From Pseudomonadota bacterium (GTDB lineage Bacteria > Pseudomonadota > Gammaproteobacteria > Burkholderiales > JABEVD01): a stretch of DNA of 41,485 nucleotides. Of the stretch, positions 19,608 through 35,485 are shown piece after piece. The translations under genes were made by a program, and so were the position numbers. Numbering within the stretch: the first letter of the stretch is position 1; each line of letters opens with the position of its first letter. Location: NCBI GenBank assembly GCA_021845885.1, contig JAJZVB010000004.1, positions 1 to 41,485 on the forward strand, read 5' to 3'. The notes beneath the pieces were generated by a model. It had not been told where the DNA came from. It did not search any database and saw nothing but the letters and a program-made list of their open reading frames with translations.

Positions 19608-22600
19608 TCATCCCGATGAAAGCGTCTTCCCTTCCACAAGGAACAAGGCGATTTGCTCGGGCGGAACAGCGGGGCTGAAGAGATAGCCCTGGATCTCGTC
19701 GCACTCGAGCGCTTTCAATTGCGCCGCCTGCCCCATTGTTTCCACCCCTTCCGCGATCACCTTCATGTCGAGGGAATGGGCGAGCGAAATGATGCTCGAG
19801 ACGACGCCGAAATCGTCCGGACTGGTGTTCATGTTGACGATGAAGGAACGGTCTATTTTCAGCGAATTGACGGGAAGCCTTGCAATATAGCTGAGCGACG
19901 AATAGCCGGTTCCGAAATCGTCCACTGCGATTTCCATGCCCATTTCCCTGATTGTGAAAAGCTTTTTCATGTTCTCCTCGATGTCCTGCATGAGCAGGCT
20001 TTCCGTGATTTCCAGGTCGATGCGGGAAGCCCAGTTTCCGACCGCCTTTTCAACCTTCTCCACGAAATCCTTCTGCTTCAGCTGGAACGGCGAGACATTG
20101 ACAGCCACCCTGAGGGATTTCGAGCCGCTTTCGCCCCACTTCAGCGAATCGGACACCGCCTTCTCCAGCGCCCAGCGGCCGACTTCGAGTATCATGCCGG
20201 TCTCCTCGAGAAGCGGAATGAATTTCACAGGGGAAATCAGCCCGCCCTCGGGATCCTTCCATCTTATCAGCGCCTCGAGCGCGGTGATGCACCCGCTTCC
20301 CAGGTCGACCTTGGGCTGGTAATAAAGCACGAACTGGTCCTCTTCGAGCGCGCGCCGCAGCCTGTTCTCCATGGTCAGCTTTTCAGCCACCCTGGCGTTG
20401 ATTTCCGGGTTATAAAAGAGATATTTGTCGCCTGAAAGCTTGGCCTTTTTCAGGGCGGCCTCCGCATTCCTGAAAAGGGTTTCCGCATTCCTGCCGTTTG
20501 CGGGAAAGAGCGCGATGCCGAACCTTGCCGCGATCCTCAGCTCCGTCTCATCTATCCTGAAGGCCTCGGAAAGGGAATTCTGGACGTTTTCTATGAAATG
20601 AACGACATCGGACTCTCTTTCGAAGCCGTAATATATCGCGGCGAAGCTGTCCGCACTGATCCTGGAAAAATGATGCTTTTCCAGAACGCCTGCCGATAGC
20701 CGCTCGGCGATCTGCCTGAGCAGACCGTCCCCGGCATGTCTCCCCAGGGTCTCGTTGATGATCCTGAATCTCTCCAGATCCATCACCAGCACGGCGACCT
20801 GATCGTCCGCAAGCAGGAATTGGCTGAGCCGGTCGAAGAAAAGGGTGCGGTTCGGAAGTCCCGTCAGCACATCGTAATAGGCCAGATAATTGAGCTGTTC
20901 CTCCTTGGCCAGATGGTCGAGCCCGAATGAAATGTCGCCTGCGACTTCGACGAGCAGCTTCATTTCTTCCCTGTCGAAATAGTTCGCCTCGCCGGCATGG
21001 AGAACGAACACGCCGACCTTTTCGCCCCCGACATGGATCGGAAAAACCGCGAAAGCGCGATAACCGCGTTCAAAGGCCTCCTGGCAGATTGCTGAAAATT
21101 CGGGATCGGAGGCCATGTCATTGCAGACGACAATCCCGCTTTCCTTCATCGCCCCCGAATTCAGCAACTGGCTGAAAACCTTTTCGATATCGTCATCCCC
21201 CGCCTTCGCCGCGGGCACGATCCGTTCTTTCGAAAGCATCCCTATCCAGGCCATCTTGAATCCGCCGAGTTCGGCGGCGATCCTGCAGGCCTCGTCGAAA
21301 AGCGCTTTCCTGCTTTTGACTCTGACGATCGTCGTATTGATCCCGGAAAGCACGGCATAAACCCGGTTGAGGCGCATGATTCTTCTTTCCTGCGCCTTGC
21401 GGACGCTGACGTCTCGGGCGACCGTGGAAAGATACTCGACTGATTCCCCTCCCGCCTTGTGGGCGATGATGACCTGGGAAACCGGGATCTCCATCCCATC
21501 CCTCAAAAAAGCGGTTTCCCCGCTCCATGAGCCGAATTGCACGGCATGGGGAATACCCTCTTCCATGACGATCCTGATCGCCCATTCCGGATGTATGTCG
21601 TAGAGGTTTTCGGGCTTCCTGTCGCCTATCATGGCCAAGCCAGCTCGATTGATGGAAAGGAAATTCCCGGACGGATCCGCGGTCGCCACGAAATCGGGAG
21701 TCGAGTCAATGATCGCCAGCAATCTCTGCTGCTCCTTCTCGATGCGCTTTCTCGCGGCGATTTCGAATCTGAGCTCCTTCGTCCGCTCTTCCACCAGCTT
21801 TTCCATCTTCTCATGAAGTCTTGCGCGCTCGAGCGCCACTGCAACCTGCTCCCCGATATTGTGCAGGAGCCTCAGTTCGTTCTCGCTGAATTCCCTTTCC
21901 CCGACCAGATTCATCAAGCCGATCTTTCTTTCCCCGACAAGCAGGGGAATGCTGGCATGGCGAACCCTGTTGAGATTTTCGCATTCCGGAATATTGGCCG
22001 ACTGGACGAGTTCGCCTGAAAGAAGCTTGCGCTGACACAGGCAGTCTCCCTCGCCTACCTCGGAATCCATGTTGCAGGTCGCGCCTATCCTGAAAGCAGA
22101 CTGGCCTTCGAGCAGCAATATCCATCCGGCATGCACGGAAGGCAGTTCCACAGCGCGCTTCAGAGCGGTTTCAGCAACCTCCTTCTCGCTGCCCGCCTCG
22201 TTCAGCCCTTCGGCAATCCGGTAAAGACCGTTGAGGATCTGGTTGGAGCGGGCGAGATCCCTTTCCTTCAATTTCAGTTCGTCGTTGATCCGGATTGCCT
22301 GCTCGTAGGTTGAAATCAAAAGATCCAGAATCTGCTGGCGCTCCGCGGTGATGAAATGGGTCTTGCCGCTCAGCCTGATTTCAAGCCCAAGACGCATCCT
22401 CTGATTCTGCCGCAATTCCTTGTTCATCAGCAGGTATTCGATCCTGGAGACCAGGTAACGCGCGTCATAGGGTTTCCTGATGAAATTGTCTGCACCGCTC
22501 TCCAGGCCCCTGATGACATCCTCCGAATCGGAAAGCGAAGTCACCAGGATGACCGGCACTTCCTTCAGATTCTCGTCTTCCTTGACGGCCCTGCAAAAGC

Positions 22601-22793
22601 CGTAGCCGTCGAGCTCGGGCATGAGGATGTCGCTGACGATCAGGGCGGGCTTTTTTTTCCTGGCGATTTCCAGAGCCTGCCTGCCGTTTTCGGCGACTTC
22701 GGTGGCATAGCCCTGGCCCTCGAGAAGATACTGCAGCTGTACGGCCTGGGTTTTGCTGTCCTCGGCAATGAGAACGGTGATTTTGTCTTTCAT
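19608..22793 (-). CDS. REC-GAF-PAS-GAF-GGDEF(degenerate)-EAL protein, predicted c-di-GMP phosphodiesterase
   Basis: The 1061-residue product is the last gene of the Wsp-like cluster. Order: receiver (1-125, acceptor D55 in LIVSDILMPE), helical linker, GAF (about 200-325), PAS (about 355-475), second GAF (about 485-630), GGDEF (about 640-795) and EAL (about 810-1055). The GGDEF active-site motif is replaced by SADSF, so cyclase activity is unlikely. The EAL domain keeps EALIRW, the Asn of VNVSPFQ, LEITES, DDFGTGYSS, LKIDRSF and EGVET, so it should hydrolyse c-di-GMP. In Pseudomonas Wsp the same slot holds WspR, a REC-GGDEF cyclase. It overlaps cheB by ATGA and is expected to be phosphorylated by the adjacent CheA. 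Confidence 0.9.
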   Translation of the reverse strand: MKDKITVLIAEDSKTQAVQLQYLLEGQGYATEVAENGRQALEIARKKKPALIVSDILMPELDGYGFCRAVKEDENLKEVPVILVTSLSDSEDVIRGLESGADNFIRKPYDARYLVSRIEYLLMNKELRQNQRMRLGLEIRLSGKTHFITAERQQILDLLISTYEQAIRINDELKLKERDLARSNQILNGLYRIAEGLNEAGSEKEVAETALKRAVELPSVHAGWILLLEGQSAFRIGATCNMDSEVGEGDCLCQRKLLSGELVQSANIPECENLNRVRHASIPLLVGERKIGLMNLVGEREFSENELRLLHNIGEQVAVALERARLHEKMEKLVEERTKELRFEIAARKRIEKEQQRLLAIIDSTPDFVATADPSGNFLSINRAGLAMIGDRKPENLYDIHPEWAIRIVMEEGIPHAVQFGSWSGETAFLRDGMEIPVSQVIIAHKAGGESVEYLSTVARDVSVRKAQERRIMRLNRVYAVLSGINTTIVRVKSRKALFDEACRIAAELGGFKMAWIGMLSKERIVPAAKAGDDDIEKVFSQLLNSGAMKESGIVVCNDMASDPEFSAICQEAFERGYRAFAVFPIHVGGEKVGVFVLHAGEANYFDREEMKLLVEVAGDISFGLDHLAKEEQLNYLAYYDVLTGLPNRTLFFDRLSQFLLADDQVAVLVMDLERFRIINETLGRHAGDGLLRQIAERLSAGVLEKHHFSRISADSFAAIYYGFERESDVVHFIENVQNSLSEAFRIDETELRIAARFGIALFPANGRNAETLFRNAEAALKKAKLSGDKYLFYNPEINARVAEKLTMENRLRRALEEDQFVLYYQPKVDLGSGCITALEALIRWKDPEGGLISPVKFIPLLEETGMILEVGRWALEKAVSDSLKWGESGSKSLRVAVNVSPFQLKQKDFVEKVEKAVGNWASRIDLEITESLLMQDIEENMKKLFTIREMGMEIAVDDFGTGYSSLSYIARLPVNSLKIDRSFIVNMNTSPDDFGVVSSIISLAHSLDMKVIAEGVETMGQAAQLKALECDEIQGYLFSPAVPPEQIALFLVEGKTLSSG

Positions 22794-23821
22794 GGTCTCG
22801 CCCTTTTGTTCGCCATGGCGGCAAGGAACGGCGCGATATGTTCGGGCGCGAGAACGTAAGTCGCGCCATCGAGCCTGAGCGCTTCCCCGGCCATGCCGTA
22901 TACGACTGCGCTTTCCCTGTCCTGAACGAAAGTGACCGCTCCCTTTTCCTTCAGGAGCTTCATTTCCCGGGCGCCGTCCCTGCCCATTCCTGTCAGCAGT
23001 CCCGCCACGGAAGCGGGACCGAAATGGTCCGAAACCGACCGGAAAAGAAAGGAAACGGAAGGCCTCAGGCCGTTCTCAGGATCGTCGAGGGTGAGCGAAA
23101 TCCTGCCGCCTTTTTCCACCTTCATCTGATAGCCGTCAGGGGCGATGTAAACGCGCGAAGGCGCCATGACCTCTCCATGCCTCGCCAGGGCGACGGGCAG
23201 AGCGGAAGTCTGGGAAAGCCATTGCGCGAATCCCTGAAGGAACCCTGCAGCCATGTGCTGAACGATCAGGATGGGCAGGGGAAAATTATTCGGCATGGCG
23301 GACAGGATGCCCTGGAGCACCGGCGGCCCCCCCGTCGATGCGCCGATGGCGACGAGCTCGACAGCTGTCTCGGTCCGGGAGGAAAGGAACTTTCCCTTCG
23401 GCCAGCGCCTCACCAGTTTCACTTCGGCCATCGCCTTCACAACCTGGACAAGCTCCATGGCGCAGGCCTCCTGGTCGGGATGACCCAGGCCGGGAGGGCG
23501 CGGGACGAAAGCCAGGGCGCCGGACTCCATGGCATTGAATGTCGTTTTCACGTCTTCCGGATCGGCGCTTCCGCTCACGATGATGATGGGAATCGGATAT
23601 ATTTCCATGATTCTCCGGGTCGCATCCAGGCCACCCATTTTCGGCATGTGAACATCCATGGTGATGACATCGGGCCTGATGCGCATCGCGTTCTTTATGG
23701 CCTCCTCGCCGTCGGAGGCCATTCCGACGACGCTGATGCCGGGCGAGCTTTCCAACACGTGGACCAGCCATTCCCTGGCCACCCGGGAGTCTTCCACCAC
23801 CATCACCCTGATCTCTTTCAT
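22790..23821 (-). CDS. cheB: CheB-type methylesterase (WspF-like)
   Basis: The 343-residue product has an N-terminal receiver (D56 in VITMDVHMPKMGG) and a C-terminal methylesterase with the catalytic triad S162 (GASTGG), H189 (VQHM) and D282 (GMGRDG). It would demethylate or deamidate the MCP of the cluster and so set the signalling level of CheA. The conserved receiver Lys is replaced by Arg in LAFVPRPPG, a small departure that may alter phosphorylation. Junctions with cheA upstream and the EAL gene downstream are both ATGA overlaps. By position and partners it is the WspF equivalent; loss of WspF in Pseudomonas locks that system on. Confidence 0.92.
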   Translation of the reverse strand: MKEIRVMVVEDSRVAREWLVHVLESSPGISVVGMASDGEEAIKNAMRIRPDVITMDVHMPKMGGLDATRRIMEIYPIPIIIVSGSADPEDVKTTFNAMESGALAFVPRPPGLGHPDQEACAMELVQVVKAMAEVKLVRRWPKGKFLSSRTETAVELVAIGASTGGPPVLQGILSAMPNNFPLPILIVQHMAAGFLQGFAQWLSQTSALPVALARHGEVMAPSRVYIAPDGYQMKVEKGGRISLTLDDPENGLRPSVSFLFRSVSDHFGPASVAGLLTGMGRDGAREMKLLKEKGAVTFVQDRESAVVYGMAGEALRLDGATYVLAPEHIAPFLAAMANKRARP

Positions 23822-25800
23822 ATCAGCCTTCCCACGGTCTCGACGAGATTGCCCCGGTCGAAACCGCCCTTGACGATATAGGCATTCGCGCCGGCTTCGA
23901 TGCCCCGCTCCCGATGCTCCCTGGAGTCGAGCGCGGTCACGAGCACCACGGGAAGCGAGGAAAGATTTTCGTCCGCACGGATTCTGGCCGTGAGTTCGAA
24001 ACCGTTCATTCTGGGCATGTCGACATCCGAAACGACGAGATCGAATGATCCCTTTTTCAAATGATTCAGCGCATCGACGCCGTCCACGGCCGTATCGACC
24101 CTGTATCCCGCGGACTCCAGGATTCCCTTCAGGAGGGTTCTGGACGTGATCGAATCCTCCACCACGAGGATGGCCTTGAATTTTTCCTCTTCCAGAGACG
24201 GGGTCACGGACCTCGCCGAAGCCGATTTCATCAGGTCGGATGCATTCAGGACGGGCACGATCTCGCCCGTGCCGAGCAGACAGGCGCCGGCGACATTCCT
24301 GACCCGGACGAGCTGAGGGCCCAGAGTTTTGACGAGCACTTCCTGCTCGCCGAGAATCTCGTCGACCTTGAACCCGAAATGCGCCCCTTCCCGGCCCAGC
24401 ACGATCACCTTCACGGGGTCGGCCTTCGACTGCGGGCCTGCAATCCCGAGCACGGCGACAAGGCTGAAGAGCGCAACCGCCTTCCCCTCGATTTCGGCGG
24501 ATTCCACATTTTCCACGAGCCTGATTTCCCTCCTTTCCACTCTCGCCGCCTTCGCAATGCTTGCGGAAGGAATGACGAAAAGCCTGCCTCCAGCGCGAAC
24601 CAGCACGCCCCTGAAAGTGGCGAGGGTCAATGGCAGGACAAGGCGGAAAACCATGCCGCTGCCGCCGGGGTCGACTTCAATGTTTCCCCCCAGCTTTTCG
24701 GTTTTTTCCTTGACGATGGCGAGCCCCAATCCCCGCCCTGAGATATCGGTGACGGAAGGGCTCGCCGTCACCCCCGACTTGAAAAGAAGCGACGCCATCT
24801 CCCCGGGCCCGACCTTTTCTTCCGGGGAAAGGAACCCGAGCCTGATTCCGGATGCCTTCACTTTCTCGACATCGATTCCGGCCCCGTCGTCGGATACGGC
24901 GATTTCAACCTTTCCGCCTTCTTTCTGGCTCAATGCAATCATGATCCTGCCTTGCGGCGGCTTCATCCTGGCGATTCTCTCTTCCGGAATTTCTATGCCG
25001 TGATCGGCCGCATTGCGCAGCAAATGGATGAGCGGCTCCTTGATTTCCTCCAATATCCGCCTGTCGATCTCGATTTCCCCTCCCCTGATTTCGAGATCGA
25101 TCTTTTTCCCGAGTTCCTTCGAGATCTCCCGAACGAAGCGGGGGAACGCATCGGATACGGAAGAAAAAGGCATCATGAGCATTTCCCTCGCATCGGAAAG
25201 GAGCGCTTCGATCAGGGCTGAAAAGCTGAGCAAATCCTGTTCTGCGATTTTCCTGAAAGCGCTCATGCGCGATTCGGCAGCCTTCATGGCCAGCGTCAGG
25301 TCAGCCCCCTTGCCGGGCAGGCGGAGCATGCCGAGCATTTCGTCCAGGTCCTTCAATCTCTGCTGCTCGGCGAGCCTGGGGAAAAGCAGCTCTTCGGCCC
25401 GCCTCATGACCGTCCCCAGCTTCCTTACGTCAACCCTGACCGTTTCGCTTTCGACCCCTGCAGGTTCGGCGCCCTGGGGCTTCGGGAGCAGTCCAACGAT
25501 ATCATCGACGGCCTCCTGGATTCCCAGGAGCAACTCAGGGGAAACTTTTATTTTCCCGCTTTTCATTTGCGAGAACAGGTCTTCCAGAGACTGGCAGGCA
25601 TGCTCTATCTGCGTCATGTTCACCGCCCTTGCCGCCCCTTTCAGGCTGTGCGCCTCGCGGTAGATCCTTTCGACGATTTCTTCCCGCATCCCGGGCGTAT
25701 CCCTCAAGGCGGTGACGCAGGACGACATCGCCTCGACATGTTCGAACGCCTCGACCCTGAAGGTCGCAGTCAATCTGGAAAGGAAATCGCCTTCTTCCAT
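23818..25800 (-). CDS. cheA: CheA-receiver hybrid histidine kinase (WspE-like)
   Basis: The 660-residue product has an N-terminal Hpt domain with phospho-acceptor H51 (REAHSLKGAAR), a kinase core with LIHLLRNAADHGIE, DDGAGID and GRGLGLAIVKEK, a CheW-like regulatory domain (about 395-525), and a C-terminal receiver (about 540-660, VVSDVDMPRMNG). There is no obvious separate P2 domain. The fused receiver is the hallmark of WspE and other alternative-function CheA proteins, and may act as a phosphate sink or relay. It follows the MCP gene with no gap and overlaps cheB by ATGA. Its likely targets are the receivers of CheB and of the EAL protein. Confidence 0.92.
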   Translation of the reverse strand: MEEGDFLSRLTATFRVEAFEHVEAMSSCVTALRDTPGMREEIVERIYREAHSLKGAARAVNMTQIEHACQSLEDLFSQMKSGKIKVSPELLLGIQEAVDDIVGLLPKPQGAEPAGVESETVRVDVRKLGTVMRRAEELLFPRLAEQQRLKDLDEMLGMLRLPGKGADLTLAMKAAESRMSAFRKIAEQDLLSFSALIEALLSDAREMLMMPFSSVSDAFPRFVREISKELGKKIDLEIRGGEIEIDRRILEEIKEPLIHLLRNAADHGIEIPEERIARMKPPQGRIMIALSQKEGGKVEIAVSDDGAGIDVEKVKASGIRLGFLSPEEKVGPGEMASLLFKSGVTASPSVTDISGRGLGLAIVKEKTEKLGGNIEVDPGGSGMVFRLVLPLTLATFRGVLVRAGGRLFVIPSASIAKAARVERREIRLVENVESAEIEGKAVALFSLVAVLGIAGPQSKADPVKVIVLGREGAHFGFKVDEILGEQEVLVKTLGPQLVRVRNVAGACLLGTGEIVPVLNASDLMKSASARSVTPSLEEEKFKAILVVEDSITSRTLLKGILESAGYRVDTAVDGVDALNHLKKGSFDLVVSDVDMPRMNGFELTARIRADENLSSLPVVLVTALDSREHRERGIEAGANAYIVKGGFDRGNLVETVGRLI

Positions 25801-27261
25801 TCATTTCGCCCCGATCATCTCCCCGAGATGCCTGCCGAGTTCGTGCAGATTGCGCGCTGCAGCCTCGGCCTGTTTCGTTCCCGCCACATTCTGCTGGCTG
25901 GCCTGCCTGATGTTTTCCATGGCCAGCGCGACCTGGTCCATTCCCACCATCTGCTGCTGGCTGGAAGCGGCAATCTGGATCGAAGCCTGGGCGGCCTCGT
26001 TGATGCTTTCCGAAAGCAGGCTGATCGATTCCCCGGCTGCACGGGATTGCCTGACCCCTTCTTCCACGACCTTGGCACCCTGCTCGGCGGCAAGGGCGGC
26101 AGATGAAGTGCCCTTCTGGATTTCAGTGAGGATGGATCTTACCCTGGCTGTCGCCTGTTTCGACTGTTCGGCCAGGTTCTTGATTTCCTGCGCCACGACG
26201 GCGAATCCTTTGCCGTGCTCTCCGGCCTTGTTCGCCTCGATGGCGGCATTCACGGCAAGGATGCTGGACTGCTCGGCAAGATCGTTGACGCTGACGATGA
26301 TCTCGCCGATCGTCTGTCCCTGTTCCGAAAGTTCGACGATCCGCTCCGCGATCTGCGCCATTCTGTCCTGGATGCCCTGCATCACCTTGACCGAGTCATC
26401 CACGGATTTCTTCCCTGCGACGGCGGTTTGCGAAGCTTTTTGAGCACTTTCGGAAACGTTCTTCGCCTTTTGGCTGGCCAGCTGGGCGGTCTGCTTCACT
26501 TCCTCCACTGTGGCGGTGGTTTCGCTCACGGCGGTGGCCGTCTCGGCGGCACCCGATGCGACCTGAGTGGTGGTGGCGAGTATCTGGCTGGATGATGAAG
26601 CCAGCTGGTTAATGCTTTCCTTCAACTGAACGGAAATCGATCGGGTGACGAAATAGCCGAGCAAGGCCAATGCGGCAATGGCCGAGGGAATGCCGTAAAG
26701 AATGGCCGAGAGGGTGGCCCGAGCGCCCGAATTTTCCTTGCCGCTCCTCGTCTTGAGCAGCCCTTCTTCTTCAGCCTGCATATCCGAAATGATTTTCCGG
26801 ATATCGTCCATCTCGTTCTTGCCCCTGTCCGTCCTGACAATCTGCAGGGCGGCATCGAATCCCTGATTTTTCCTCAGGTCTATGGTTTCCTTCATTTCGG
26901 CAAGCTTGTCCGAAACGAGCGGCTCCAGAATGGCGATCCGCCTCTGCTGCAAGGGATTGTCGATGGTCTGTTCGCGCAATTCCTGAAGAGACTCGCTGAT
27001 CGACGCGATGCCTGCATTGTAGGGCTGCAGATAGCTCTCCTCCCCCGCCACGAGATAACCGCGCTGGCCTGTTTCAGCGTCCTGCAATGCGGAAAGCAGG
27101 TTTCCGAGCCTGTCGAGGACCTCGAAGGAATGCGCTCTGAGCTTGGCGCCCTCGATCAGCTCCGCCGCATTGCGGTATGAAAATAGGCCCAGGACCAGCA
27201 GCATGAAAAGCGCCAGCGCATAGCCCGCGCCGATCTTCGTTCCGACAGCCCACTTCGTCAT
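25801..27261 (-). CDS. CHASE3-containing methyl-accepting protein (WspA-like)
   Basis: The 486-residue product has membrane helix 1 (about 11-28), a periplasmic CHASE3-type sensor (about 35-175, with DAETGQRGYLVAGEE), membrane helix 2 (about 185-205) and a long cytoplasmic signalling coiled coil. The hairpin tip is canonical (NDLAEQSSILAVNAAIEANK, then GKGFAVVAQEIKNLAEQS). No clear HAMP domain is present: helix 2 runs almost directly into the coiled coil. No CheR-tethering pentapeptide is seen at the C-terminus (ends LGEMIGAK). It sits between the second CheW and CheA, whereas wspA is first in Pseudomonas, so the order is rearranged. Confidence 0.9.
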   Translation of the reverse strand: MTKWAVGTKIGAGYALALFMLLVLGLFSYRNAAELIEGAKLRAHSFEVLDRLGNLLSALQDAETGQRGYLVAGEESYLQPYNAGIASISESLQELREQTIDNPLQQRRIAILEPLVSDKLAEMKETIDLRKNQGFDAALQIVRTDRGKNEMDDIRKIISDMQAEEEGLLKTRSGKENSGARATLSAILYGIPSAIAALALLGYFVTRSISVQLKESINQLASSSSQILATTTQVASGAAETATAVSETTATVEEVKQTAQLASQKAKNVSESAQKASQTAVAGKKSVDDSVKVMQGIQDRMAQIAERIVELSEQGQTIGEIIVSVNDLAEQSSILAVNAAIEANKAGEHGKGFAVVAQEIKNLAEQSKQATARVRSILTEIQKGTSSAALAAEQGAKVVEEGVRQSRAAGESISLLSESINEAAQASIQIAASSQQQMVGMDQVALAMENIRQASQQNVAGTKQAEAAARNLHELGRHLGEMIGAK

Positions 27262-27274
27262 TTCATTTCCTCCT

Positions 27275-27853
27275 TCATGCGCTTTCGTCGACGATCAATC
27301 TTCCGTCCTCCGTCAGCTTCCCGACATCGAGAATGATGAGGTGGTCCGGTGCCACGCCTAAAACATGGTCCGTTCCGGGAAGTGGCTGCTTCACGAGGCT
27401 TCTCGGGATGGCATGCACGCCGAGAATGGCATCCGCCAGGATGCAGAACCGCATTTCGCCCTGCTCGAGAACGACAAGCCTGTTCATGTCGGTCAGCCCC
27501 CTTTTGGGAAGCCCGAGGAATTTTTCCAGATCGACGACTGAAAGTATTTCCCCGCGGATGTCGACGATGCCCGGAACGAAATCAGGCGTGCAGGGAAGCG
27601 AGGTCAGCCGCTCAAGGGGAAAAACATCCCTTACATATCTGGATTCGGCCGCATAGCGCTCCCTGCCCAGCTGAAACTCGACGACCTCGATCATCTCCCC
27701 TTCGGGAACGCCGGTCCCGCTTTCTTTGGCCAGCTGCGCAGCCCTTCTTTTCAGGATGGCCCTCACCTGTTCCGGCTCCCAGGCGCGCGCCATGGCCGCT
27801 TCCGCCGCCGCAAGGCGCTGCCTCACCGCGTCCCAGTCGATCCTAGAGGCCAT
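27275..27853 (-). CDS. cheW: CheW with N-terminal extension (WspD-like)
   Basis: CheW couples the MCP to CheA. The 192-residue product has a helical extension of about 55 residues (MASRIDWDAVRQRLAAAEAAMARAWEPEQVRAILKRRAAQLA...) before the CheW fold (about 55-190: EVVEFQLGRERYAAES, PDFVPGIVDIRGEILSVVDLEKFLGL). The extension is typical of WspD-type CheW proteins. It overlaps the end of cheR by 11 bases and is 13 bases before the MCP gene. It is one of two non-identical CheW proteins in the cluster, as in Wsp. Confidence 0.9.
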   Translation of the reverse strand: MASRIDWDAVRQRLAAAEAAMARAWEPEQVRAILKRRAAQLAKESGTGVPEGEMIEVVEFQLGRERYAAESRYVRDVFPLERLTSLPCTPDFVPGIVDIRGEILSVVDLEKFLGLPKRGLTDMNRLVVLEQGEMRFCILADAILGVHAIPRSLVKQPLPGTDHVLGVAPDHLIILDVGKLTEDGRLIVDESA

Positions 27854-29081
27854 TTACGCCCTTCCCGCCCAGCATGGCGATGATTCCTGCAAGCCGCCCC
27901 GCTGCGAACCCATCCGATTCGGAAAGGATTTCATCTTCAGGCAATTTCTCGAGCAGGATCCTGGCATTATCGAAATGGGATCCGGCCTCCCTGCCCCGGT
28001 TCTGGGAAAGACACAGGCTGCCCAGCGCAAAATGGGCGAGGATGAAATCCGGATCGAGATAGAGCGTCTTTCTGAGCTCCCTTTCCCCCTCGCTGATTCT
28101 TCCCATCTCGTGCAAGATGCTGGCGAATAGATAATGCCTTTTCGGGTCGAGCCTTTCCGATTCGATCGCCTTTTCGCACCAAATGACGGCTTCATCGAGC
28201 TTTCCCCGATCAGCGCACGATCTCGCCATCAGGCAGGCGTCGGGAAGGATTTCGATCTTCTTTTCAGGACAGGATGCAGCCGGCTTTTCCTTCGGCTTCC
28301 TATAGAATACGGCACCCGGGAAATCGACGGATTCGAAGCGATGGAAAAGGGCTTCGGAAAGTTCCGCGGGGCTCACGACGAGCCAGCCGTTTTCAACTGC
28401 AGCCCCGTACAGCCTGTTTGCTGCGCTCTCCTGCATTTCCGGGCTGAAATACATCAGCACGTTCCTGCACAAAATGATGTCCATGCCTTCGGGATAGGCA
28501 TCTTCCACGAGATTATGTCTGGAAAATCGCACCATTTCCCTGATGCGGGGAAGAAGCTCGTAACCCTTCTCCTTTTTCCTGAAATAGCCGCTGATCCAGG
28601 AAGGGACATCCCTGAACGACCATTCGCCGTACAGGCCTTCTGCGGCCTTTTCCAGGAAGCGGGGATTGATGTCCGTGGCGAGGATATGGATCCCATCACG
28701 CCCGCGAGCCATCCTGTCGAGCAGCATGGCGATGGAATAAGGCTCCTCTCCGCTGCAGCAGCCTGCGCTCCATATCCGGATCGAAGCCCTCGTTCTCAGG
28801 AGTTCAGGCAACACTTCGAGCTCCAGCGCATCGAAAATTTTCCCGTCCCTGAAAAAATAGGTCTCGCCCACGGTCAAATGGCTGGCGAGTATTTCAATTG
28901 GCTCGCGCCCGGCCCTGCCTGAAAGAAGCCATGTTGCGCAGGCATCCTCCCCCGGGAATCCGAGATCCTTTGCCGCTAGAGCCAATCCCCGTTCGAGATC
29001 CGCCCTGCGCTTCCGGGGAAAATAGAGCCCGACATGAGCGGAAAGCAGCTTGCTCAACGGCTCATAAAAAGCATCCTGCAT
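27843..29081 (-). CDS. cheR: CheR methyltransferase with TPR tail (WspC-like)
   Basis: The 412-residue product has the CheR N-terminal helical domain (1-80, HVGLYFPRKRRADLERGL, LTVGETYFFRD), the SAM-binding fold (WSAGCCSGEEPYSIAM, ILATDINPRFL, MDIILCRNVLMYF), and a C-terminal extension (about 300-400) with TPR-like repeats (KRHYLFASILHEMGRISEGERELRKTLYLDPDFILAHFALGSL). CheR-TPR architecture is characteristic of WspC and related alternative chemosensory systems. It methylates glutamates on the MCP. It starts at the base after the upstream cheW stop. Confidence 0.92.
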   Translation of the reverse strand: MQDAFYEPLSKLLSAHVGLYFPRKRRADLERGLALAAKDLGFPGEDACATWLLSGRAGREPIEILASHLTVGETYFFRDGKIFDALELEVLPELLRTRASIRIWSAGCCSGEEPYSIAMLLDRMARGRDGIHILATDINPRFLEKAAEGLYGEWSFRDVPSWISGYFRKKEKGYELLPRIREMVRFSRHNLVEDAYPEGMDIILCRNVLMYFSPEMQESAANRLYGAAVENGWLVVSPAELSEALFHRFESVDFPGAVFYRKPKEKPAASCPEKKIEILPDACLMARSCADRGKLDEAVIWCEKAIESERLDPKRHYLFASILHEMGRISEGERELRKTLYLDPDFILAHFALGSLCLSQNRGREAGSHFDNARILLEKLPEDEILSESDGFAAGRLAGIIAMLGGKGVNGL

Positions 29082-29528
29082 TCAGGTGCACTCCATGGCC
29101 AAGTCGAGCTGCATCCTTTCCTTCCCGGAAAGGAATGCCTCTAGATCTTGGATGAGCACCAGATCCTCCCCGATTCGGGCAATGCCGCCGATATGCTCCA
29201 GCCCGGGATGAATGCATTCGGGTTCGATGATTTTTTCGCATTCAACCACCTCCCCGATTGAATCGGCTATCAGGCCCACCCTGCGCTTTTCGGTATGGGC
29301 GAGAATGATCCTGTCGGTCAACGCAAGCGCCTTCGCGGGAAGGCCGAAGCGGCTTCGGATATTGAATATGGGAACGATTTTTCCCGCCAGGTTGATGACG
29401 CCTTCCACGATCTCGGGGGCGCCAGGCAAGGGGGTGACCTCCACAGAAGGAACGATCCTGTCCACTGAGGCTAGCGGCAGGGCATAATGCAATTCGGACA
29501 GGGAAAACAGGAGCAGCCGGCCATTCAT
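29082..29528 (-). CDS. cheW: Short CheW (WspB-like), first gene of the chemosensory set
   Basis: The 148-residue product is a single CheW domain (LLLFSLSELHYALPLASVDRIVPSVEVTPLPGAP, EIVEGVINLAGKIVPIFNIRSRFGL). It lacks the extension of the second CheW, matching the WspB/WspD pairing. It is 85 bases downstream of phcQ on the same strand. That gap is short enough for read-through from the phc genes but long enough to hold its own promoter. Confidence 0.9.
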   Translation of the reverse strand: MNGRLLLFSLSELHYALPLASVDRIVPSVEVTPLPGAPEIVEGVINLAGKIVPIFNIRSRFGLPAKALALTDRIILAHTEKRRVGLIADSIGEVVECEKIIEPECIHPGLEHIGGIARIGEDLVLIQDLEAFLSGKERMQLDLAMECT

Positions 29529-29621
29529 GACGATTCCGTTATCTTATTCGTCTTTCCCCTTTAGCACATATCCATTAAAAGGCAAGCAAAACTGTCAGGA
29601 TTTACAGGTGCCATTACCTGT
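29529..29621 (-). promoter_or_regulatory. phcQ-cheW junction with short hairpins
   Basis: A perfect 6-bp inverted repeat ACAGGT/ACCTGT (29604-29609 and 29616-29621) spans the phcQ stop codon. A second short stem CTGT/ACAG followed by TTTT can form just after it on the minus strand. They are too weak to call a terminator with confidence; partial attenuation between the quorum-sensing and chemosensory halves is possible. The rest of the gap is A+T-rich, but no promoter box close to consensus stands out. Confidence 0.3.
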
Positions 29622-30567
29622 CGCAAAACTGGCTGATCCAGGCGGCGATCCTCGATGCGGACAATGCCTTTCCGGACGAGGCCACGATCATGCCTTCGAG
29701 GCTGCCTTCGTTTTTCTTCAGCTGCAGCGACCGTCCCGTTCCATGCAGCCGGATGAGGAAGGCGAGCCAGGCAACATGCTGCTGAGAGACTTGTGAATCG
29801 GAAGGGGTTTCCAGGAATTCGGAGAAATCGGGCGCGTTTTCAAACAAAACGGCCCCGTTGCCCGAGATTTTCGCGCCGATTTCGAGAAGCAGATCCGCTT
29901 CCCCCTGCAAGCCGGTCTCGCCCAGCCTGTTTTTCAATGCCAGTCCGAATTGGCCGGCGCGCAAGGCTTCCGCCGCGACCAGATCGGAATAATCCATCAG
30001 CAGCCAGTCGGGCTCGGGCGGGTTGACACCGACGGCAGAAGCGGCAGAAAGATAGTCCTCAAGGACCGAGGCCGATCCTGCAAGAGGATGGCACAATGCG
30101 TAAAGCGTGCCTATGCGGCTGGACACGGTTTGCATTTGACGGACGATCAGCTTCTCGTGCAGAAGCTGGGCATGCTCCTTGCGCAGAGCGGCCAATTCGA
30201 GCGCCTGCTTCAATTCCATTCTCAGGGCCGATATTTCCCAGGGTTTCTGGATGTATCGATGGATCTGCCCCTGATTGACCGCCTCGACGGTCTGCTCGAG
30301 TTCGGAATAAGCCGTGGTCAGGATCCGCACCATGTGAGGATACCGGGTTCGCGCGTAGACCAGCAGCTCGTTGCCGAATCCTCCCGGCATGCGCTGGTCC
30401 GAAACCAGAACGGTCAGCGTCTCTCCATGCTCGTCCAGCTTCCGCATGCCCTCCTCCACAGTGCAAGCTGTAACAACAGGGGCCAGCGAATCGATTGCAC
30501 GCTGGAAATATTTGACTGCCGTGGCCTCATCGTCGACGAACAGGATTAGCGGGGCATTGTCGGTCAT
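29614..30567 (-). CDS. phcQ: PhcQ-like response regulator
   Basis: The 317-residue product has an N-terminal receiver (APLILFVDDEATAVKYFQRA, acceptor D57 in VLVSDQRMPGG, then ILTTAY and YIQKPW) and a helical C-terminal region of about 190 residues with no DNA-binding or kinase motif I can recognise. This matches PhcQ of the Ralstonia phcBSRQ operon, where PhcQ relays quorum-sensing state to PhcA-controlled genes. ATG 30567 was chosen because it overlaps the phcR stop (ATGA) and starts MTDNAPLILFVDDE; a longer frame inside phcR is rejected. The name rests on gene order and architecture. Confidence 0.75.
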   Translation of the reverse strand: MTDNAPLILFVDDEATAVKYFQRAIDSLAPVVTACTVEEGMRKLDEHGETLTVLVSDQRMPGGFGNELLVYARTRYPHMVRILTTAYSELEQTVEAVNQGQIHRYIQKPWEISALRMELKQALELAALRKEHAQLLHEKLIVRQMQTVSSRIGTLYALCHPLAGSASVLEDYLSAASAVGVNPPEPDWLLMDYSDLVAAEALRAGQFGLALKNRLGETGLQGEADLLLEIGAKISGNGAVLFENAPDFSEFLETPSDSQVSQQHVAWLAFLIRLHGTGRSLQLKKNEGSLEGMIVASSGKALSASRIAAWISQFCDR

Positions 30568-31643
30568 GAATCGCTCCTTTTGATAGCCGGAAAGTTGAGT
30601 GTGACGGCAGTATGGATGTCCGGTTCCGAGTGGATCAGGATGCTGCCTCCGAATGACTGCATGATGCGATTGCAGAAAATCATCCCCCATCCCTTTCCGC
30701 CTTCATCCGCATGGGTCGTGACGGGATCACGCATCAGGCGCTCAAGAATGTCGGGGGAAATGCCCGAGCCGTTGTCGACGATGCGTATCTTCGGGCTGTC
30801 TTCCACAAGCACGGTGAAGCAAATCATGGGCGAAGGCTCGCCCTTGATGGCTCGAAGCGCGTTGCCGAGCAGGGAGGACAATACCAGAAGGACGCAATTG
30901 GGCAGGACCATGACCGGGAAATCTTCGAGTATTTCCGTCCGGACCAAGGCCCTCTGGGCTGGATTCAGCGGATAGGTGTCGAGCAGGGATGAAATCAATT
31001 GCCGCGCAGTGCTGTATGCCTCATGGGTGACCGAACCCGCCCCCTGGATCGATTCGGAAAAGGTGGAAAGCAGGGTCAGGCAATAGCCGGCATTGTCGTC
31101 TATGGCCTTCAGGGCTTTCGCGACCTCCGGCTGGCTGGTCCTTCGAGCGATGCCCCTTGCAAAATTGATGATCGTGGCAAGCGGGGTATTGAGTTCATGC
31201 CCGAGAAAAGCGAGCGTCTCGTCGATGGCCTTCAGCCTTTGATGCCTTGCCCTGCGTTCGCGTGAAAGCTCGTCCGCCAGGCGCAGGGCTTTCCTGACCT
31301 CATCGAAATCCAGAGGCTTTTCGAGTATCCTGAAAATTTCGCCGGAATTCACCGCATCGAGAAGCACATCCCGGTCTGCAAATGCAGTCACGAGGATGCG
31401 GACAGCCTGCGGGAAATCACGGGCTGTCTGGCGCAGCAGATCCCCCCCATCCCTTCCCGGCATGCGGTAATCCGTGACCAGTATGTCCACTCTTCTGCCT
31501 AGCAGGATGTCGATCGCGGCATCGGCGCCGGATGCGGTCAGCACCGAATAGTCGGTGCCGAAGGCGCGGGCGAAGTATTTCCCGGCCATGTCTTCGTCAT
31601 CCACATACAGGATCACGGCGGCGGATTCATCCCGGTTCATCAT
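30564..31643 (-). CDS. phcR: PhcR-like receiver-histidine kinase
   Basis: The 359-residue product reverses the usual hybrid kinase order. An N-terminal receiver (ILYVDDEDMAGKYF, D58 in ILVTDYRMPGRDGG, K109 in EKPLDF) is followed by a histidine kinase with H149 in FLGHELNTP and an ATP-binding domain (LLGNALRAI, VDNGSGISP, GGKGWGMIFCNRI). There is no membrane segment, so it is cytoplasmic. In Ralstonia PhcR has this same architecture and is the partner of PhcS. Both flanking junctions are ATGA overlaps, so phcS, phcR and phcQ are tightly coupled. Confidence 0.78.
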   Translation of the reverse strand: MMNRDESAAVILYVDDEDMAGKYFARAFGTDYSVLTASGADAAIDILLGRRVDILVTDYRMPGRDGGDLLRQTARDFPQAVRILVTAFADRDVLLDAVNSGEIFRILEKPLDFDEVRKALRLADELSRERRARHQRLKAIDETLAFLGHELNTPLATIINFARGIARRTSQPEVAKALKAIDDNAGYCLTLLSTFSESIQGAGSVTHEAYSTARQLISSLLDTYPLNPAQRALVRTEILEDFPVMVLPNCVLLVLSSLLGNALRAIKGEPSPMICFTVLVEDSPKIRIVDNGSGISPDILERLMRDPVTTHADEGGKGWGMIFCNRIMQSFGGSILIHSEPDIHTAVTLNFPAIKRSDS

Positions 31644-32962
31644 CCGGCCCTCGGCAAATCAAAAATCATTTTCGTCCATTCGCCATATGCACTTTCCGCA
31701 ACCAGCGTTCCCCCATGCCTTTCGATCACGCCGTAGCTGATGGAAAGGCCCAGGCCGAGCCCCTGGCCGATTTCCCTGGTGGTGAAAAAGGGTTCGAACA
31801 CCCGGTCCAGATTCTCGGGTGCAATGCCCGGACCATTGTCCTGAACCGTGACGAAAAGCCGGTCGCCCCGCCATGCTGCGGAAAGATGGATGGCAGGCTC
31901 GACCCGTTTCGCTGAATGCAGCGCAAGGGCCGAATTGCCGAGCAGGTTGACCAATACGCCGATGACGGCCGCCTCGTCCCCCCGCACCAGCGTGTCCTCC
32001 GGCATATCGCGCGTGATCGAAATACCCCTGGTTTCGTGGCCGACCAGACGAAGCGCAGAATCGGCCACTTTCCCGAAAAGGAAATCGTTCCTTTCCGTTT
32101 CCCCGGTCCGATAAGCGAATGTCTTCAGGTCCGAAACGATATGCTGGATCCGCTGCATCCCCTGCCTGGCATCCATCAGGCATTCCTTGAGCGAATCGCT
32201 GACCCTGGCAACGGGGTCTTCCATCGCGACTTCCATCGCCATCAGGCAATAATTGACCGGATTGTTGACTTCGTGCAAGAGACCTGCGGAAAGCGTGCCT
32301 ATGGCGGCCATCTTTTCCTGCTGCAGCATCTGCCCCTTGATTTGCGCGAGATTCCTGTTGGTTTCTTCAAGCTCGCTGTTCTTCCTCGACAGCTCCGCCT
32401 TGAGCCGGAAAAGCATGTAGCGGGTATGTTCGTTGAAATAGGCGCTGACTGCGCTGACGGCGATGACGAAGGCGAGAAACAGCACATTGATGAGAAAAAC
32501 CCCGTGCAGAACGAAGCTTCCGGGATGCAGGGCGCATACTGCAATATAAAACAGGAAAGTCACCAGGCTCAAGAAGAGGTTATGCCAGAAGCTGAAAGGC
32601 AGCCCGATGCTGGACGCGAAAATGGCGAGGTAGAGACCGATGCTGTACATGGATCTCGCCCCGTCGGTTTCGGCAATCATCCAGGCGATCATGATCTGCG
32701 GCAAGAGAAGCCAGAGCAGCGAGAGCATATCCGTGGCGTCCCGGGACCATTTTGCCTTCATCACGAGGATGACGCCGTAAATCATCAGCGAAACGAGCAG
32801 CCGAACGGCGCCGAACTCGTACAACTTCTGCGGATAAAGCGCGTAATCCAGCCCCACGCCAAGCAGGATGAGAATGATCCCCATGTATGCGCAGGCTATA
32901 CTGAAGTTTAGGCGGAATCCCTTGATTTCATTCTGATATTCAGTATATCTCGGCCCGCTCAT
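31640..32962 (-). CDS. phcS: PhcS-like six-helix sensor histidine kinase
   Basis: The 440-residue product has six membrane helices (about 20-38, 52-70, 80-97, 104-120, 130-146, 153-175), a short coiled linker and a HisKA/HATPase core: H230 in LLHEVNNPVNYC, LLGNSALAL, VQDNGPGIAPENL and GQGLGLGLSISYGVI. The helical sensor with almost no periplasmic loops is the PhcS/LqsS/CqsS type, which detects small lipophilic autoinducers. PhcS senses 3-hydroxy fatty-acid methyl esters made by PhcB, and its gene is 17 bases after phcB here. The LqsS/CqsS alternative is less likely because no LqsA/CqsA synthase is present. Confidence 0.78.
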   Translation of the reverse strand: MSGPRYTEYQNEIKGFRLNFSIACAYMGIILILLGVGLDYALYPQKLYEFGAVRLLVSLMIYGVILVMKAKWSRDATDMLSLLWLLLPQIMIAWMIAETDGARSMYSIGLYLAIFASSIGLPFSFWHNLFLSLVTFLFYIAVCALHPGSFVLHGVFLINVLFLAFVIAVSAVSAYFNEHTRYMLFRLKAELSRKNSELEETNRNLAQIKGQMLQQEKMAAIGTLSAGLLHEVNNPVNYCLMAMEVAMEDPVARVSDSLKECLMDARQGMQRIQHIVSDLKTFAYRTGETERNDFLFGKVADSALRLVGHETRGISITRDMPEDTLVRGDEAAVIGVLVNLLGNSALALHSAKRVEPAIHLSAAWRGDRLFVTVQDNGPGIAPENLDRVFEPFFTTREIGQGLGLGLSISYGVIERHGGTLVAESAYGEWTKMIFDLPRAG

Positions 32963-32979
32963 GAATGGGTATCAATCGC

Positions 32980-34368
32980 TCACGCGACGGTCATTTCCGC
33001 AAAAACGTTCACCCCCGTGGCATCGACAAAGATGCTGTATTCCCGGGATGCGGGAGGAAGAAGCGAAGCGAGCCCCGCCTCGTCCCGCAGGATCAGATAC
33101 CACTCGAGCAAATGCTCCATCACGAATTTCATCGGATTGACCGAATGGACATTGGTGACCAGGAGCATGCCCCCCAAATGCGTGCGCGCAGCAAAATGCC
33201 CTATGAGTCTCGCGCAAACCTTGTCCGACAGATAATCGAAAAGACCGGCGCAGTACACGGCGTCGAATTCCCTTTCGTCATGAGAAGGATCGATGCGGCG
33301 CTTGAGCAGCTTGTGGACGGAGTCATGCACGTAATCGATGGAAACCGGCTTGGCCGTCTGCGCGATGACGGATGAAAGTTTATTTCTGGTCCAGTCCAGC
33401 GTTTCTTCGCTGAAATCGACGAGTTCGAAGGAAAGGAACTCGGGCTGCGGATGACTTTGCAGAAAACGCTGTATCTCGATGGCCGGACCGCACCCCACAT
33501 TCAGGATGCGGAAAGGCCTCCCGGCCTGTCTCGCCTTTTCCGCAAGCCGGTTCAGAAAGTCCACCAGAATGACGATGCGGTTGCGGTGAGCCTCCGCCAT
33601 GGGTGTTTGCAGGAAAGCCGCATTCACCATCTGGAAATACGTGGAGGGCCCCCTGCGCGGATCGTCGAGGATCTGGTTGACCATCTGGTAGTCGCCGGCA
33701 TAGCCCAGGGGCTTCATGTAGGTTCTGAAAACGAAGGGCGCGCGCAGCAGAAGCGGATGCAGGGCGGATTGGGCATAGGCGCGATGCGATGAGGACAGCT
33801 CCGCATCGACAAGGGATGCTTCCCCGTTCAATACATCGAGATAGCGTTGCGCCTTCTGCATCAGGGGATCGAAAAGTTCGAAAAACACGTCTTCCCTGAG
33901 CTGACCTTCCGCCTTGGGAAGCGATTCGGAAAGATCCACCTGTTCGATCCAGCGAGAAACATCGGAGAGGTAGGCGCGCATCTCGTTCACCACGATCTGG
34001 TAGTCCCGCCTGATCTGGAAACGCCTCGTCCAGTCCTCGACGAATGCCTGCGCTTCGGCCCCCACAGTGCCTGGCACCGCATCGACATCGTTCAATTCGC
34101 GCCATTCGTCGATGAGCGTCACCGAAACGATCGCGGTAAGGCCCGTATTGACCAGGCTGATGACGACAGCCTTGCCGAGGTAGGCTATCCTGGCGCCGAA
34201 TCTCACCGTGAATTCGCCGAGCACTTCGCTGACCTGCACGATGGAATAGGGATTGTATACCTCCATCACGAGGGATTTTCTCTGCAGGTTGACGATCGTC
34301 CCCCTGACAGCTTCGCCCTCTGCGTTGCGGAAACTCACCAGCGGGTCAATTTGTTTTTGTGTATGCAA
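32980..34368 (-). CDS. phcB: PhcB-like signal synthase (methyltransferase)
   Basis: The 462-residue product ends in a class I SAM-dependent methyltransferase (motif I RILNVGCGP at about 288-296, LVDFSEETLDW, FDAVYCAGLFDYLSD). Before it lies the helical region with YMKPLGYAGDYQMVNQI (about 217-233), a hallmark of the PhcB family that methylates 3-hydroxy fatty acids to the Ralstonia autoinducers 3-OH PAME/MAME. The first 95 residues are beta-rich and resemble a PilZ-like barrel without the RxxxR and (D/N)xSxxG c-di-GMP motifs. The frame has no ATG near its start; TTG 34368 is the best start, with a weak ribosome-binding site. It heads phcBSRQ. Confidence 0.8.
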   Translation of the reverse strand: MHTQKQIDPLVSFRNAEGEAVRGTIVNLQRKSLVMEVYNPYSIVQVSEVLGEFTVRFGARIAYLGKAVVISLVNTGLTAIVSVTLIDEWRELNDVDAVPGTVGAEAQAFVEDWTRRFQIRRDYQIVVNEMRAYLSDVSRWIEQVDLSESLPKAEGQLREDVFFELFDPLMQKAQRYLDVLNGEASLVDAELSSSHRAYAQSALHPLLLRAPFVFRTYMKPLGYAGDYQMVNQILDDPRRGPSTYFQMVNAAFLQTPMAEAHRNRIVILVDFLNRLAEKARQAGRPFRILNVGCGPAIEIQRFLQSHPQPEFLSFELVDFSEETLDWTRNKLSSVIAQTAKPVSIDYVHDSVHKLLKRRIDPSHDEREFDAVYCAGLFDYLSDKVCARLIGHFAARTHLGGMLLVTNVHSVNPMKFVMEHLLEWYLILRDEAGLASLLPPASREYSIFVDATGVNVFAEMTVA

Positions 34369-34486
34369 AGTATCTCGGGAAATGGGACGACCAGATCCTT
34401 GTGGTTAAACATAGTCATGTAGCGCTACAATAACAGAAAGACTGCTATACGAAAACCGGAGCGTCAAGCGCGTCATATTGCGGCAA
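34369..34486. promoter_or_regulatory. Divergent phcB / LqsR-like control region with 12-bp palindrome
   Basis: This 118-base spacer must hold both divergent promoters. Its clearest feature is TGTAGCGCTACA (34418-34429), a perfect 12-bp palindrome roughly midway between the two starts. On the plus strand TACAAT (34426-34431) overlaps its right half and could be a -10. No near-consensus -35 is seen for either direction, suggesting activator-dependent promoters. The palindrome is a candidate operator; no regulator can be named. Confidence 0.5.
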
Positions 34487-35485
34487 ATGGACAATCGCCT
34501 ACCTGTTTACAGCTACCCGACATTGACCGTGCTGATCGATGACAGCCGGAGTTTTCTGGACAGTCTGGCCTTCCAGCTGAACCCGAGGATAGGGTACAAG
34601 ATATTTCACGATACCCGGGAAACGCTCGACTGGCTTCACGACGCTCAACGCTATGCCGCCATAAGCGATCCGATCTATGCCAAATCCGATGAATTGTCGC
34701 AATTCTTCGAAAGGCACAGCGCCTCCATCGATCTCAGCCGGATCTACCATATCGCGATGAACCGGCAGCGTTTCAGCCTGCCGACCGTGCTGGTCGTCGA
34801 CTACGCGATGCCCCGGACGAACGGGCTGGAATTGTGCCAGGCGGTGCAGGGCCTGCCCTGCAAGAAAATATTGCTGACCGGACAGGCCGACGAAAAGGTT
34901 GCCGTCGAGGCCTTCAATCGCAATCTGATCGATCGATTCATCAAGAAACAGGACCCCAATGCACTGAATCGCCTTGAAGAAGAAATCGTCCGGTTGCAGA
35001 AGGATTTCTTCAACGAGCGGACAAGCACGCTGAAGGACCTGCTTCTTGACGAGACCTATTCCTTTCTGTCCGACCCGGCCATGGGTTCGCTCGTCGCCCG
35101 GATCGGCAGCCGCTACCGCTTTGTCGAGCACTATCTTTTCCCTCACCCCTCAGGCATCCTTTTCTTCGATATCCGAGGCAAGGCCACATTGATGGTGATA
35201 GAAACAGCAGCGGGACTGATTTCCCATGCCGAGATCGCCGAGGATCAGAATGCCCCTCCCGAACTGCTCTCAGCCCTGAAGGCATTCAGGCTGGTGCCTT
35301 TCTTTTCCGACACGAGCGGGATGTATTCGGATGCGATCAGCCACGACTGGCTCTCCTACTGCCTGCCGCCCCAGATCTGCCATGGCCGACAGGATTATTA
35401 CTGGGCATTGTTCGATCTGCCTTCCCATTATCTGAAAGGCACGGTCTATCCCTATGCGGAATTCCTGAAAACGCAATCGATCTGA
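34487..35485 (+). CDS. LqsR-like response regulator
   Basis: The 332-residue product starts with receiver-like TLTVLIDDSRSFLDSL. The acceptor Asp is not reached until D105 (VLVVDYAMPRTNGLEL) because about 50 extra residues, mostly helical, are inserted in the receiver. ILLTG and the conserved Lys (RFIKKQ) follow. The C-terminal 150 residues carry no DNA-binding motif. A receiver with such an insertion and a non-DNA-binding C-terminal domain matches LqsR, the Legionella quorum-sensing regulator. ATG 34487 is chosen; TTG 34478 is an alternative that would put the Asp at 108. It is divergent from phcB and ends 4 bases before the convergent nfu stop. Confidence 0.6.
   Translation: MDNRLPVYSYPTLTVLIDDSRSFLDSLAFQLNPRIGYKIFHDTRETLDWLHDAQRYAAISDPIYAKSDELSQFFERHSASIDLSRIYHIAMNRQRFSLPTVLVVDYAMPRTNGLELCQAVQGLPCKKILLTGQADEKVAVEAFNRNLIDRFIKKQDPNALNRLEEEIVRLQKDFFNERTSTLKDLLLDETYSFLSDPAMGSLVARIGSRYRFVEHYLFPHPSGILFFDIRGKATLMVIETAAGLISHAEIAEDQNAPPELLSALKAFRLVPFFSDTSGMYSDAISHDWLSYCLPPQICHGRQDYYWALFDLPSHYLKGTVYPYAEFLKTQSI

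Follow-up and report, generated by a model that had tools for sequence, protein, structure and literature searches.

Which way would a chemosensory array drive c-di-GMP when the last gene of its cluster encodes a regulator with a degenerate GGDEF domain beside an intact EAL domain, and from what kind of ancestor does such a cluster come? Most of what is known of c-di-GMP control by chemosensory systems comes from the Wsp system, which raises the messenger. The locus considered here lies in a 41,485-nucleotide stretch of a burkholderialean genome (hereafter the window), and a preliminary description had called its cluster Wsp-type, with a phosphodiesterase in the position held by WspR. We analyzed the cluster, its output protein and related loci to address both parts of the question.

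A complete chemosensory cluster with the output gene last

The genes are ordered CheW-CheR(TPR)-CheW-MCP-CheA/REC-CheB-output and are tightly packed on the minus strand. Pfam identifies a CheW of 192 aa (27275..27853) and another of 148 aa (29082..29528), a CheR methyltransferase with C-terminal TPR (27843..29081), an MCP with a periplasmic CHASE3 domain (25801..27261), a CheA of 660 aa with Hpt-HATPase-CheW-REC architecture (23818..25800) and a REC-CheB methylesterase (22790..23821), which overlaps CheA on one side and the output gene on the other by 4 bp each. The TPR-family matches lie downstream of the CheR domain (best E 5e-6), each below its own cut-off, and Pfam detected no HAMP domain in the MCP, where CHASE3 was the only receptor-domain match. 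The phospho-His context of CheA (HSLKGAARA) and the CheB motifs GASTGGP and GMGRDGA are preserved. The component set of the ACF (alternative cellular function) class is thus complete: CheA, CheW, CheR, CheB, MCP and a multidomain response regulator. A scan for promoters and terminators returned sites no commoner than in shuffled sequences and did not delimit an operon. No flagellin gene was found in the 96%-complete genome, which in 2.07 Mb contains 35 GGDEF matches, 27 EAL matches and 11 MCP signalling domains.

The output gene (19608..22793, minus strand, as are its domains below) encodes a response regulator of 1061 aa with REC-GAF-PAS-GAF-GGDEF(degenerate)-EAL architecture. The REC domain (residues 7-118; 22440..22775) carries the phospho-acceptor D55 and K107, and is followed by a conserved linker of 84 aa (residues 119-202; 22188..22439; ...FITAERQQILDLLISTYE...), for which Pfam gave no match above cut-off. 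Two GAF domains (residues 203-323, 21825..22187; residues 494-626, 20916..21314) surround a PAS domain (21399..21761). The latter is assigned based on the following factors: 1) a match below cut-off in the window's protein (PAS_8, E 0.0015); 2) a clear match in the equivalent region between the GAF domains of an orthologue (PAS_4, E 3e-8); and 3) a PAS-like topology at residues 354-461 of the predicted model, held with moderate confidence. The full-length model, built on a five-row alignment, is itself of moderate quality only (pLDDT 69.7, pTM 0.35).

The GGDEF domain (residues 638-789; 20427..20882; E 9e-29) has SADSF as its A-site at residues 713-717 (codons at 20643..20657), and the I-site is lost, its position reading LEKH in place of RxxD. 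In the EAL domain (residues 810-1041; 19671..20366; E 2e-70) all eight catalytic residues are in place (E840, N899, E928, D958, D959, K979, E1015 and Q1035). The closest solved structures are those of GGDEF-EAL proteins, 5m3c (E 4e-97) and 4rnh (E 3e-93). The preliminary description was therefore accurate in the coordinates, domain order and length that it gave, with the PAS domain made clear by the orthologue and the model, as it was in placing SADSF at the GGDEF motif beside intact EAL motifs.

Motif states across the family

To place these motifs in context, 80 loci with relatives of the window CheA were collected, together with related loci from the same order and class, and the fetched loci were scored with HMMs built from the window domains. 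The closest relatives of the window cluster encode a REC-GAF-(PAS)-GAF-GGDEF-EAL protein directly 3' of cheB. Output proteins from equivalent clusters, the window's included, gave an alignment of 20 rows; these rows share descent, and the motif counts that follow are not independent trials. One row, from SZAS77, belongs to a cluster whose CheA falls outside the window's CheA clade. The output of G323 lies on a separate contig, and that of G003 runs off a contig end.

Comparison of the terminal gene across these homologous clusters, as the preliminary description had proposed, returned an A-site predicted to be cyclase-dead in every row. An intact GG[DE]EF motif occurs in 0/20; the typical form is xADxF, and the sites observed are SADSF, NADSF, SGDSF, AANRF, SADYF, SADSY, GGDSF, SADCF, NADCF, GADSF, SADHF, ADDRF, ASDEF and VADKF. 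Among the other GGDEF domains of the window's genome, by comparison, 28/34 have a strict GG[DE]EF, and the remaining six read GGDDF (three), AGDEF, GSDEF and a very divergent SEASF. Every covered row retains the EAL catalytic residues, with the second Asp of G004 the one exception, and the DDFGTGYSS loop is conserved across the family; variants in the EAL region include ETL for EAL in Haliea and EGVD in G321. REC residues D55 and K107 are invariant in all covered rows. Mean identity among rows is 64% for EAL and 65% for REC, and 53% for GGDEF. Two of the 20 rows are interrupted, by an in-frame stop in G004 and a frameshift in G229, which may reflect assembly error or decay; G004 combines its stop with the changed catalytic Asp, and no cheB was detected there.

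A phosphodiesterase-only output is thus a well-supported prediction, because no row has an intact GGDEF motif (compared with 28/34 elsewhere in the genome) and only one copy, apparently decayed, departs from the full set of EAL residues. Residue conservation predicts phosphodiesterase activity rather than proving it. As judged from these motifs, the cyclase-dead, phosphodiesterase-competent state is a conserved trait of the family, and is new in the present analysis. Two other readings of the motif survey were rejected. SADSF is not a lone mutation of the window's genome, as loss of the A-site extends through the 20 rows; nor are all GGDEF-EAL outputs of such clusters cyclase-dead. The f22 clusters (L188-L191, L194) end in a REC-GAF-GGDEF-EAL-REC protein in which GGDEF and an RxxD-type I-site are intact, so these outputs are possibly bifunctional.

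In the GGDEF domain, N680 and D689, an Asn/Asp pair at positions that we take from PleD to contact guanine, are invariant (20/20). D715 is kept in 19 rows and the metal-binding D672 in 17, with Asn in the other three, whereas positions 713 and 716 vary freely. The position of the phosphate-contacting Lys of PleD is not conserved in the aligned segments. This residue pattern permits nucleotide binding without cyclisation.

Predicted signalling and the direction of control

The reading that we consider probable is that the cluster encodes an ACF-class system, separate in lineage from Wsp, whose customary REC-histidine kinase output gave way to a REC-GAF-PAS-GAF-GGDEF-EAL phosphodiesterase. An array of CHASE3 receptors with the two CheW proteins would control CheA, which would phosphorylate D55 of the output REC domain and, for adaptation, CheB. 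The conserved linker and the GAF/PAS/GAF region, where further cytoplasmic inputs may enter, would then relay the signal to the EAL domain for hydrolysis of c-di-GMP. The GGDEF domain, predicted to be unable to cyclise GTP, would have a regulatory or dimerisation role and perhaps bind GTP. The pairing of CheA with the output rests on gene order, and the adjacency of cheB and the output gene recurs in relatives. We infer catalysis, phosphotransfer and activation, as opposed to inhibition, of the EAL domain by phosphorylation.

The sign of this last step bears on the physiological outcome. The same phosphodiesterase may instead be inhibited by REC phosphorylation, in which case activation of CheA would raise c-di-GMP, as in Wsp. 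The sequence fixes no sign, and a long helical linker with GAF/PAS/GAF relays downstream of the REC domain is compatible with either; for WspR and for the Pch protein of P. aeruginosa, however, activity of a CheA-type kinase accompanies output activity (PMC8846402, PMC3861689), although their domain layouts differ, and we regard inhibition as unlikely while giving it real weight. A comparable, minor share of belief goes to a local or "trigger" role, in which the EAL domain mainly drives protein-protein interaction and barely alters the global c-di-GMP pool. In a 2.07-Mb genome with 27 EAL and 35 GGDEF matches, the pool may depend little on any single enzyme, and precedents for trigger phosphodiesterases are known (PMC5052742). 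No partner gene is apparent, however, and the intact catalytic set is compatible with either role. It is very improbable that the EAL domain is an inert sensor that binds c-di-GMP without hydrolysis. Some GGDEF-EAL proteins (LapD and similar) do behave in this way, but the EAL signatures of LapD-like sensors are usually degenerate, whereas this family conserves its catalytic residues together with the DDFGTGYSS loop.

Lineage of the cluster and probable exchange of the effector

The preferred reading, a phosphodiesterase in place of a kinase, follows from the relatives of the window cluster, most of which, apart from the closest, end in REC-histidine kinases. The post-REC linker (residues 119-202), a single copy in the window's genome, is present in 20/20 GGDEF-EAL outputs and 60/62 histidine kinase outputs. 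Only one of seven REC-GGDEF outputs has it, that of L018, whose cluster is planctomycete and falls outside the Wsp clade. In G389 (L233), a REC-GAF-PAS-GAF front with 58% identity over residues 4-632 carries a histidine kinase. The parsimonious reading is that the effector was exchanged on a shared ACF input module. Because the relatives mostly encode REC-histidine kinases and the REC-linker is common to kinase and GGDEF-EAL outputs, the protein that the phosphodiesterase replaced on its ACF scaffold would have been a kinase and not WspR.

When plasmids were searched for reference Wsp clusters, most of the hits were distant CheA proteins; the controls for comparison with Wsp itself were instead drawn from an order-wide search and validated with the WspR structure. 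Loci L198-L204, from the same order, include MCP-first clusters ending in a REC-GGDEF protein with the A-site GGEEF, where the window has SADSF. The regulator of one of these, L199, matches 3bre, which we take to be P. aeruginosa WspR, over its full length (E 2e-133), and the L199 receptor has 4HB_MCP_1 and HAMP domains. The window MCP has no 4HB_MCP_1 domain, and the gene order, with L199 for comparison, departs from the Wsp order MCP-CheW-CheR-CheW-CheA-CheB-REC-GGDEF. In the CheA tree the window's clade (support 98) and the Wsp clade (support 100) are separate; a tree constrained to unite the window and Wsp CheA clades is worse by 32 log-likelihood units (p-AU 0.038), a significant but not overwhelming penalty. 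The cluster, its domains, the motif states with their family-wide conservation and the non-Wsp phylogeny are shown at the level of sequence.

That this is a true Wsp system with WspR exchanged for a phosphodiesterase is hardly credible: the component list does match (two CheW, CheR-TPR, CheA-REC, CheB, regulator last), but the receptor is of CHASE3 and not 4HB-HAMP type, the gene order differs, CheA lies outside the WspE clade, and WspR is without the REC-linker. Of the preliminary description, then, the output predicted to be a phosphodiesterase and not a cyclase stands, on conserved motifs, while "Wsp-type" and "the position held by WspR" fail as statements of kinship.

Genes upstream of the cluster

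Directly upstream of the che cluster and on the same strand, four genes span 29614-34368. Domain matches identify a SAM methyltransferase (32980-34368), a histidine kinase (31640-32962), a REC-histidine kinase (30564-31643) and a response regulator (29614-30690, with its likely start near 30567). A divergently oriented response regulator on the plus strand (34478-35485) matches PDB entry 6sy9, presumably LqsR (E 6e-41). The four-gene set also adjoins the che cluster in the same-genus genome G008, and is found on a Paraburkholderia graminis plasmid with no che genes annotated nearby. The five genes resemble a Phc/Lqs-type quorum-sensing set, the divergent regulator being LqsR/PhcX-like: in layout and domains they fit the published account of phcX and phcBSRQ (PMC10653808), a likeness drawn by description. 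A joint claim would have a conserved ACF branch removing c-di-GMP, a cyclase-dead GGDEF domain that binds GTP and gates the phosphodiesterase, and co-transcription with Phc genes at the level of the genus. We consider this combination doubtful; if it were true, cell density and a CHASE3 ligand would both feed a single c-di-GMP sink.

Comparison with known systems

The window cluster would represent a conserved lineage with a cluster-encoded regulator able, by its sequence, only to degrade c-di-GMP. The module of REC and linker also bears histidine kinases, which offers a direct test of how one chemosensory scaffold comes to drive different, perhaps opposing, outputs. The kind of regulator is already known from CheR-TPR clusters: the accessible part of a 2012 survey lists one REC-EAL regulator and two that combine REC with both GGDEF and EAL, and some of its multidomain regulators carry PAS/GAF (PMC3447774). 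Those ACF pathways share CheR-TPR, CheA, CheB and a multidomain regulator with the window cluster, whereas a conserved phosphodiesterase-only subfamily, an A-site survey and a shared REC linker are not described in that part of the survey.

Wsp (WspA-F and WspR; class ACF) resembles the window cluster in its component set and c-di-GMP output, and differs in gene order, receptor domain, CheA clade and REC linker, and in having a cyclase where the window output is a predicted hydrolase. Wsp systems use exclusively WspR or WspH, the latter being a histidine kinase output that takes the place of WspR in Burkholderia cenocepacia (PMC8552884). This variant is evidence that systems of this type can exchange their terminal output, but it remains within Wsp and is without EAL (PMC8552884). 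FimX has a degenerate GGDEF domain (GDSIF), and its phosphodiesterase activity is raised by GTP (PMC8846402). The likeness is that a degenerate GGDEF domain adjoins EAL and may sense GTP; FimX is treated in that review as a one-component protein, in contrast to the chemosensory output described here, for which GTP binding is putative only. Pch of P. aeruginosa, a phosphodiesterase with GAF/PAS, degenerate GGDEF and EAL domains, lowers c-di-GMP in dependence on CheA phosphorylation, as proposed for the window's output, but it works with the CheA of flagellar motility and has no REC domain (PMC3861689).
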